Source of the DNA: Herpetosiphonaceae bacterium
Lineage (GTDB): Bacteria; Chloroflexota; Chloroflexia; Chloroflexales; Kallotenuaceae
NCBI GenBank assembly: GCA_036374795.1
Contig: DASUTC010000048.1
Span: forward strand, 1-37,686
Length of the DNA: 37,686 nucleotides
Direction: 5' to 3'
The translations under genes and the position numbers were made by a program. The notes under the pieces are model-generated. The model was not told where the DNA came from. It saw only the letters and a list, made by a program, of their open reading frames with translations, and made no database searches. Shown here piece by piece: positions 23,589 to 25,258 of this stretch; position 1 is the stretch's first letter; each line of letters opens with the position of its first letter.

Positions 23589-24266
23589 ATGACTCAACTT
23601 CTTCTAATCCGCCATGCCGTCAACGACGTGATGAAAGCCAAGAAGCTGGCGGGTTGGATGCCCGACGTACATATCAACGAAGAAGGCCGTCAGCAGGCCG
23701 AGGCCATCGCCGAGCGGCTGCGCGATCTGCCAATCCGCGCGATCTACAGCTCGCCGCTGGATCGAACGCGCGAAACCGCCGAGCCGCTGGCGCGGGCGCT
23801 CAACCTTGAGGTTCAGCTCCGCGATGGATTGGGCGAGGTCCGGTACGGCGAGTGGACCGGCAAGTCGCTGGAAGAGCTCTCCAAGCTCGACGCCTGGAAA
23901 GTCGTACAGATCTATCCGAGCGGCATGCGCTTTCCGGGCGGCGAGGCGATCCGCGAAATGCAGGCGCGCATCGTGTCCGAGCTGGAGGCGATCAGCGCCG
24001 ATCATCCACGCGATATTGTCGCGATCTTCTCGCACGCCGACGTGATCAAGGCCGCGCTTGCTCACTACCTGGGTGTTCATTTAGACTTATTCCAGCGCAT
24101 CGTGATCAATCCCACGGCGGTAAGCGTCGTGCGGCTCTCGCCGTACGGGCCGCAGGTACTTCGCGTCAACGACGACGGCCCGCTGAAGCTGGAGCCGGAA
24201 AAAGAAGCGGTCAAAGAGCAAGTCGGGGGCGTCACCGTCGAAAAAGAAGAGCAACCACCACAATAA
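23589..24266 (+). CDS. Histidine phosphatase, phosphoglycerate mutase-like (MSMEG_4193 type)
   Basis: A 225-aa member of the histidine phosphatase superfamily. The catalytic RH pair is R8-H9 in LLLIRHAVND (Ala replaces the usual Gly after His). The SSPLDRTRETAEPLA motif, the acidic residue in EVRYGEWTG and the second His in IFSHADVIKAALAHYL complete the site. The C-terminus is a charged tail. AGGAG lies 6 nt before the ATG. With the next two genes it forms a trio also found in Actinobacteria (TIGR03848, TIGR03847, TIGR03843 families; in M. tuberculosis Rv2135c-Rv2133c, as I recall). The substrate of this branch is unknown. Confidence 0.9.
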   Translation: MTQLLLIRHAVNDVMKAKKLAGWMPDVHINEEGRQQAEAIAERLRDLPIRAIYSSPLDRTRETAEPLARALNLEVQLRDGLGEVRYGEWTGKSLEELSKLDAWKVVQIYPSGMRFPGGEAIREMQARIVSELEAISADHPRDIVAIFSHADVIKAALAHYLGVHLDLFQRIVINPTAVSVVRLSPYGPQVLRVNDDGPLKLEPEKEAVKEQVGGVTVEKEEQPPQ

Positions 24267-24271
24267 TGTGT

Positions 24272-24330
24272 GAATGTCGAATAGCGAATGTCTGCGGGCA
24301 ACCGCCTCCGACATTCGACATTCCTCATTC
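24272..24330 (+). terminator. Hairpin built from 7-nt units after the phosphatase gene
   Basis: The left arm is three heptads, GAATGTC, GAATAGC, GAATGTC (24272-24292). The right arm is GACATTC, GACATTC, CTCATTC (24310-24330). The apex is a GCGG-GCAA-CCGC mini-hairpin (24294-24305) with a GNRA-type loop. It starts 6 nt past the stop codon and likely acts as a terminator or mRNA-end structure. Confidence 0.6.
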
Positions 24331-24470
24331 GAGGATTTGTCAACGACTGCCAGCTAAAGCAGGCAGCTTGCAGCTACGGGAGATGACCGTGCCACATCCA
24401 AACAGCGTTCATGCTCACACTGTTCTGGCGGGAGTTCCACCCGCTGGCCGGTTGACGCCGGTGCGGTCCC

Positions 24471-24614
24471 AGACGGCGGCCCGTCACGAGCAAGAGATGC
24501 CAACCGCAGATCCCAGCATCCAGCGATCACTCACTGCATGCCTGCTCGTGCATGTTCCGGTGCGTGAGGCCGGTTGCCAAACCGGAGGCATCTCCCGCAG
24601 GAGCGCCGTTGTCT
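24471..24614 (+). ncRNA. Candidate structured RNA or riboswitch-like element
   Basis: Complementary pairs seen are ACGGCG (24473-24478) with CGCCGT (24604-24609), GAGATGCC (24494-24501) with GGCATCTC (24587-24594), CACGAGCA (24485-24492) with TGCTCGTG (24543-24550), CATGC (24537-24541) with GCATG (24550-24554), and CCGGTT (24570-24575) with AACCGG (24580-24585). The second and third pairings cross, so they form a pseudoknot or exclude each other. This is the pattern of a switching RNA, but it is read from one sequence and unsupported by covariation. Confidence 0.35.
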
Positions 24615-24660
24615 ACGCATCTCTAGTTTACCGCATTCCAATGCGAAATACAAGCCCTGA

Positions 24661-24718
24661 AAGGAGGGTGCCGCCTTCCCCTGTCGCCTGAACGCGACAG
24701 TTCCCTGCGGCCTTTTTT
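24661..24718 (+). promoter_or_regulatory. Distant ribosome site, bridging hairpin and T-run ending at the DUF3090 start codon
   Basis: A strong AAGGAGGG (24661-24668) lies 50 nt before the ATG at 24719. Between them GCCGC (24670-24674) pairs with GCGGC (24707-24711), and CTGTCGC (24681-24687) with GCGACAG (24694-24700). TTTTTT (24713-24718) directly precedes ATG. The hairpin plus T-run is a good intrinsic terminator. If the hairpin forms without termination, it loops out 42 nt and leaves the ribosome site 8 nt from the ATG. Either way it probably controls DUF3090. Confidence 0.65.
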
Positions 24719-25258
24719 ATGGCAGAGTTTCGCTACGATTTCGATCCCGTCGATCGCATTACCACCGGGGCGATCGGACAGCCGGGCAACCGCACCTTTT
24801 ACCTGCAAGCGCGCCGAGGAACCGAGAGAATCTCGCTGGTCGTAGAGAAGGAGCAGGTCAACGCGCTGGCCGAGGCTGTCGAACAGTTACTAGAAAACCT
24901 GACCGAGCGGAATCCGCTGCTCAGCACATCGGAGGATCTGCTGACCTTCCACGATATGTCGCTCGAAGAGCCGATCGAGGAGACATTTCGGGTCGGGCAG
25001 CTAGGCCTGGGCTACGACGAATCGCGGGATTTGCTGGTGATTATCGCGCAGGAGCTAGGCAGCGGAGAGGCCGGGGAGGAGATGGATGTCGTCCGGCTCA
25101 CGATGTCGCGCGAGCAGGCGCGTGCGCTGGCGCGTGAGGGCGCCGAGGTTGTCACCAAAGGCCGCAAGCGCTGCCCGCAGTGTACCGAGCCGATGGACCC
25201 AAGCGGGCATTTTTGCATCAAGAAAAACGGGTATCCTACTGTTACATACGACGTTTGA
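24719..25258 (+). CDS. DUF3090 family protein with C-terminal zinc-ribbon-like Cys motif
   Basis: A 179-aa conserved protein of unknown function (TIGR03847/DUF3090 type). The N-terminus YDFDPVDRITTGAIGQPGNR and TFYLQARRG fit the family and fix the start at 24719. The C-terminus carries CPQCTEPMDPSGHFCIKKNGY, three cysteines plus a histidine, a probable small metal site. It is cytoplasmic, with no membrane segment. It is the middle member of the phosphatase-DUF3090-SCO1664 trio. The next gene starts 24 nt on, so these two are co-transcribed. Translation control is unusual (see the hairpin touching the start codon). Confidence 0.9.
   Translation: MAEFRYDFDPVDRITTGAIGQPGNRTFYLQARRGTERISLVVEKEQVNALAEAVEQLLENLTERNPLLSTSEDLLTFHDMSLEEPIEETFRVGQLGLGYDESRDLLVIIAQELGSGEAGEEMDVVRLTMSREQARALAREGAEVVTKGRKRCPQCTEPMDPSGHFCIKKNGYPTVTYDV

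Follow-up and report, generated by a model that had tools for sequence, protein, structure and literature searches.

In phage T4 genes 25 and 38, a structured spacing between the Shine-Dalgarno (SD) sequence and the AUG is established. The linear spacing there is 22-27 nt, mutation and probing support the effect, and the structure shortens the spacing from 27 to 11 nt and from 22 to 5 nt (PMC3014915). IS200/IS605 elements of the IS1341/TnpB kind, such as ISDra2, carry subterminal hairpins at both ends and insert, with no target duplication, immediately 3' of a fixed short motif (PMC8612924). Their right end is linked to the guide RNA of TnpB, defined as the reRNA in the same work (PMC8612924). 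The IStron is an IS200/IS605-type element that is made harmless by self-splicing, in which a group I intron splices the element out (PMC4227781). Transposons that remain harmless spread further, and IStron splicing is one known route for the IS200/IS605 family.

The window, which is the whole 37,686-nt stretch of DNA analyzed here, contains an insertion in front of a DUF3090 gene. The features at this locus are as follows.

24331 to 24335, plus strand: ancestral SD of DUF3090, GAGGA, based on the relatives L003, L005, L006, and L007.
24339 to 24718, minus strand: 380-nt non-autonomous IS200/IS605-type (TnpB-family) element, antisense to the operon, identified by spacer comparison and end matches.
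24339 to 24393, minus strand: right end of the element, containing a palindrome at 24347-24366.
24339 to 24344, minus strand: 3' arm of a guide-RNA pseudoknot, GTTGAC on this strand, at the tip of the right end, from covariation.
24451 to 24456, minus strand: 5' arm of the guide-RNA pseudoknot, GTCAAC on this strand, from covariation.
24625 to 24653, minus strand: weak inward promoter-like stretch (TTGTAT, 17 nt, TAAACT), from sequence, at the position of the tnpB promoter site in relatives.
24660 to 24668, plus strand: outward SD-like block AAAGGAGGG, kept beside the hairpin in related elements.
24670 to 24711, plus strand: left-end hairpin read outward, from folding, sharing its architecture with the copies at C125 and, upstream of tnpB, C300.
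24713 to 24718, plus strand: U-tract (TTTTTT) at the left-end tip, from sequence; such T-runs occur mainly in this genome's copies.
24719 to 25258, plus strand: DUF3090 gene, whose first ATGG is the reverse complement of the element target CCAT.

The product of the gene at 24719 is a DUF3090 protein (PF11290, E 3.6e-52). ATG 24719 is the right start because the N-terminus (MPEFRYD/MAEFRYD) is conserved among relatives and the upstream frame closes at a TGA (24689-24691), which also led to the rejection of an upstream in-frame start inside the element. Among about 70 Chloroflexota loci, the great majority share the gene order phosphomutase, DUF3090, SCO1664-like gene. Upstream of DUF3090, the window has a spacer of 452 nt and the rest of the family one of 76-152 nt. 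In the nearest relative, L003, whose DUF3090 protein is 90% identical, this spacer ends in CATTCGAGGATATATGCC; in the window it ends in CATTCGAGGATTT, followed by 380 additional bases and then ATGGC.

These bases, 24339-24718, are missing from relatives L003-L007. When they are removed, the window reads GAGGATTT followed by ATGG, and this aligns without gaps to GAGGATAT followed by ATGC in L003, an empty site that also shows the insertion to have caused no target duplication. GAGGA lies a few nucleotides before the orthologous ATG in L003, L005, and L006 (same genus) and in L007 (same family). The gap-free joined flanks therefore mean that the insert split the ancestral GAGGA from its ATG, and this native site is now 383 nt away. 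A 380-nt element is inserted exactly between the DUF3090 ATG and its native ribosome site. The target reads CCAT on the strand of the element and ATGG on that of the gene, and the hairpin adjoining the DUF3090 start is the left end of the element. An imperfect inverted repeat of 26 nt at 24272-24330 (GAATGTCGAAT...ATTCGACATTC) also lies in the phosphomutase-DUF3090 spacer. It is partly conserved in L003 and belongs to the ancestral spacer, outside the element.

Both ends of the insert match tnpB elements. The 55-nt right end is 89% identical (E 2.4e-13) to the end behind tnpB of G000:C86 in the same genome, and it also matches ends behind tnpB in other bacteria (G118:C5 and a Gloeobacter plasmid transposase). 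The last 50 nt match, reversed, the left end before tnpB at C300 of the same genome. The left-end pattern, consisting of the outer stem and the AGGGNAC / GGGAA internal loop, occurs at three places in this 7.7-Mb genome: the window (C48), C125, and C300, where the copy sits directly upstream of a tnpB gene. The exact pattern had no match in 399 other Chloroflexota genomes, and the reversed pattern, used as a control, had none in the window's own genome. Neither the insert, the strict left-end pattern, nor TnpB had a match in phages and IMG/VR. The copy at C125 (G000:C125:12277-12330; L129 about 1468-1521) is a solo left-end hairpin that immediately follows an IS630-like transposase fragment, and no recognizable right end was seen there.

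The insert thus resembles IS200/IS605 elements of the ISDra2 type (PMC8612924) in its imperfect hairpins near both ends, common to tnpB-encoding copies, and in the fixed short motif that adjoins the insertion without target duplication. It differs from them in three respects. Its target is CCAT rather than TTGAT or TTAC, its left end bears an outward AAAGGAG block, and the window copy lacks tnpA and tnpB. Because 24339-24718 contains no tnpA or tnpB ORF, the element is filed only as a non-autonomous derivative. A consensus promoter scan gave no match for the promoter-like stretch at 24625-24653.

An earlier note on this DNA had described AAGGAGGG 50 nt before the DUF3090 ATG, a 42-nt hairpin in between, and TTTTTT running directly into the ATG. 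All of this is present: the block at 24661-24668, the hairpin at 24670-24711, and the T-run at 24713-24718, followed by ATG 24719. The hairpin has an outer stem of 5 bp, a 6x6 internal loop, and an inner stem of 7 bp. Its minimum free energy is -20.1 kcal/mol compared to -8.7 +/- 2.4 for shuffled sequences (z -4.8), and none of 200 shuffles was as stable. Leaving the hairpin out puts AAAGGAGG 9 nt from the ATG; the earlier note had given 8 nt for the looped-out spacing. As in T4 genes 25 and 38, the SD is too distant for normal initiation, and a stable intervening structure would bring the spacing into the 5-11 nt range. Unlike in T4 (PMC3014915), the linear distance among these elements is 46-65 nt, the arrangement sits on a mobile element, and it is inferred by comparison.

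To place the left end in context, about 35 tnpB elements were gathered, and 27 left ends, from Chloroflexota and one Gloeobacter plasmid, were clear enough to be tabulated, read outward. The layout begins with AAAGGAG and the outer stem, continues through a short pyrimidine internal loop to the inner hairpin, and returns through an internal loop and the outer stem to a stretch of mostly 3-9 nt, after which the tip is nearly always followed by ATGG, ATGA, or GTGA. About 20 related elements hold this SD-hairpin-ATG order. The hairpins are 42-54 nt long; leaving them out shortens the SD-to-start spacing from 46-65 nt to mostly 5-11 nt. Of 20 non-redundant left ends, 14 share at least 5 nt with the anti-SD complement within the 14 nt that precede the hairpin. 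This compares to 4% of windows farther upstream and to 1.4 of 20 in shuffles, with a maximum of 5 in any of 500. Information content is highest at -8 to -2 from the hairpin and mostly near zero farther upstream. The hairpin architecture is likewise kept, as the earlier note had proposed to check: the outer stems vary yet pair, the 17 distinct 5' arms scoring 0.98 with their own 3' arm versus 0.48 between elements, a test with some circularity, because pairing, along with the conserved internal loops, had served to locate most of the hairpins. This pairing test replaced a left-end covariance model, the alignment being one column out of register between subgroups. The tips of L244, L247, L248, L274, L282, L225, and L227 themselves end in ATG or GTG, giving tandem in-frame starts (for example, TTATG followed by ATGG).

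At nine of the 27 left ends, the element adjoins what appears to be a genuine start codon, with the gene oriented away from it.

Window: DUF3090.
L222: ABC ATPase.
L227: peroxiredoxin-like ORF, partial.
L282: membrane protein, 229 residues.
L272: RAMP/Cmr-like protein.
L286: peptidase S11.
L251: NB-ARC/HTH protein.
L247: 96-residue protein.
L096, Gloeobacter plasmid: HlyD-type adaptor.

A further locus, L232 (GTG start), is a member of a wider group without the SD block. In most of the readable start-abutting loci, the displaced native SD lies past the opposite end of the element (p 0.0015 versus non-start sites). The left-end SD is better kept at real starts than elsewhere (p 0.006, or 0.012 once similar ends are collapsed, in a small sample). 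The start-codon share far exceeds that expected from random ATGR sites (about 3.6%); against a null that excludes gene bodies (20%), the excess is not clear (p 0.07). Both nulls are rough estimates by the analyst. The left-end statistics as a whole are post hoc and come from a small set of related elements with start codons judged by the analyst; they lend support rather than proof.

From the conserved order, we consider it fairly probable that the left-end SD and the folded hairpin act as a split ribosome site that lets the interrupted gene stay translated. The element inserted antisense, immediately 5' of the ATGG that starts DUF3090, cutting off the native ribosome site. Read outward, its left end carries one of its own: AAAGGAGG, a hairpin of 42-54 nt, a few nucleotides, and the ATG or GTG. 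A message from the upstream phosphomutase gene would read through the element, and the folded hairpin would act as a spacer, leaving about 9 nt between the ribosome site and the start codon. The 30S subunit would then bind AAAGGAGG and initiate at ATG 24719, so that a gene hit at its start codon could go on being translated. The earlier note had likened the site to T4 gene 25. That likeness gains from the roughly 20 related elements that keep the order and from the better-kept SD at real starts, though the note had missed that the hairpin is an IS200/IS605-type left end. A looped-out ribosome site of the T4 gene 25 kind is thus plausible as a portable transposon feature.

The same block and hairpin may instead owe their conservation solely to recognition of the DNA by the single-strand transposase TnpA; the ribosome-site match and the adjacent start would then be side effects of the CCAT target. 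IS200/IS605 elements use subterminal palindromes as their DNA signal (PMC8612924), the insertion site alone would explain the ATG after the left end, and some left ends of the same lineage sit at ATGs that are not starts. This explanation is nevertheless unlikely. Located outside the hairpin, upstream of the stretch that resembles the tnpB promoter, the block has the spacing of a ribosome site to the ATG once the hairpin is skipped, and it is less well kept at copies away from gene starts.

It is similarly doubtful that the hairpin and TTTTTT are mainly an intrinsic terminator of phosphomutase transcription through the element, leaving DUF3090 silenced or in need of another promoter. The left hairpin of IS200 is a transcription terminator. 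In the window, a stable hairpin precedes six T, and T-runs recur at the left ends of this genome at C300 and C184 (5 T each) and C125 (4 T). Read as a terminator, however, the layout is a 5-bp outer stem, a C, and then U6, with the stem broken by the 6x6 loop. The consensus terminator scan does not list the hairpin among its matches, probably because the internal loop interrupts the stem. Most related left ends lack the T-run, which is largely limited to this genome's copies, and termination would cut off an operon gene that is kept throughout the phylum. What the earlier note had called a credible intrinsic terminator therefore keeps its stable hairpin and six T, while the interrupted stem, the scan, and the restricted U-tract make termination a possible but secondary role. 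The U-tract speaks for some termination and could still stop transcription before DUF3090.

It is improbable that DUF3090 is translated without an SD, whether through weak SD-independent initiation or from a leaderless message whose 5' end is close to or at 24719: the native SD is distant, U-rich leaders can permit SD-independent initiation, and related tnpB genes look leaderless themselves, with a -10-like box close to the ATG, but the consensus scan gives no promoter-like site just upstream of 24719, and in the nearest relatives a clear SD precedes the orthologous gene.

Folding also bears on how well the proposed split ribosome site would work. In the predicted ensemble, the window SD can pair with the U-tract, each base being 56-84% paired, and such pairing would reduce the efficiency of the ribosome site. 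The 5' internal loop of the left ends (TTCCT/TTCCC; for example, 24675-24680) is complementary to the SD block. The block could be conserved for pairing with this pyrimidine-rich loop rather than for ribosome binding, and an alternative fold that hides the SD in this way would be a possible two-state switch.

More tentatively, a TnpB lineage that targets the complement of the start codon may swap the gene's ribosome site for its own while the gene stays expressed. With equal reserve, such an element might be called a translational counterpart of the self-splicing IStron. The IStron is the conceptually closest relative of the proposed device: both are of the IS200/IS605 type, and in both an RNA-level device would render insertions harmless (PMC4227781). 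Unlike in the IStron, the proposed device would act at translation initiation, and a search of 24250-24800 against Rfam, with E values up to 5 allowed, gave no group I intron. If the proposal holds, supplying a ribosome site at the targeted motif would be a second route to harmlessness, at translation initiation. It would also provide a natural repeated experiment on looped-out ribosome sites, for which two phage T4 genes are otherwise the best demonstration. Titles, abstracts, and term counts of the open-access papers searched gave no description of a TnpB element with an outward ribosome site at a start-codon target. For annotation, a hairpin adjoining a start codon can be a transposon end.

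HEARO/IscB elements (RF02033) resemble the insert in being mobile, in having a structured guide RNA, and in a similar palindrome at one end. Unlike them, the insert has no RF02033 match, and its ends match TnpB elements. A plus-strand HEARO/IscB omega RNA, whose 5' end looked alike, was rejected on the same grounds, the left end matching tnpB elements; other HEAROs of this genome score 53-107 bits against RF02033. Two copies of such elements occur in the genome, as IscB genes with HEARO RNAs at G000:C347 and G000:C123 (L158, L163), the HEARO of G000:C123 being shortened (52.9 bits, below the gathering score). A T-box leader, considered for the T-box-like AGGGTGCCGCC, and a cobalamin-like riboswitch in 24430-24480 were also rejected, with no Rfam match.

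The right end carries a six-base pseudoknot, GTCAAC...GTTGAC, that covaries in nine of 10 elements, including the window copy, as would be expected of a TnpB guide RNA. The element is possibly a solo TnpB guide RNA that the TnpB from C300 could use. The guide that 24339-24480 (minus strand) would carry, taken from the flank, is AAATCCTCGAATGAGG.
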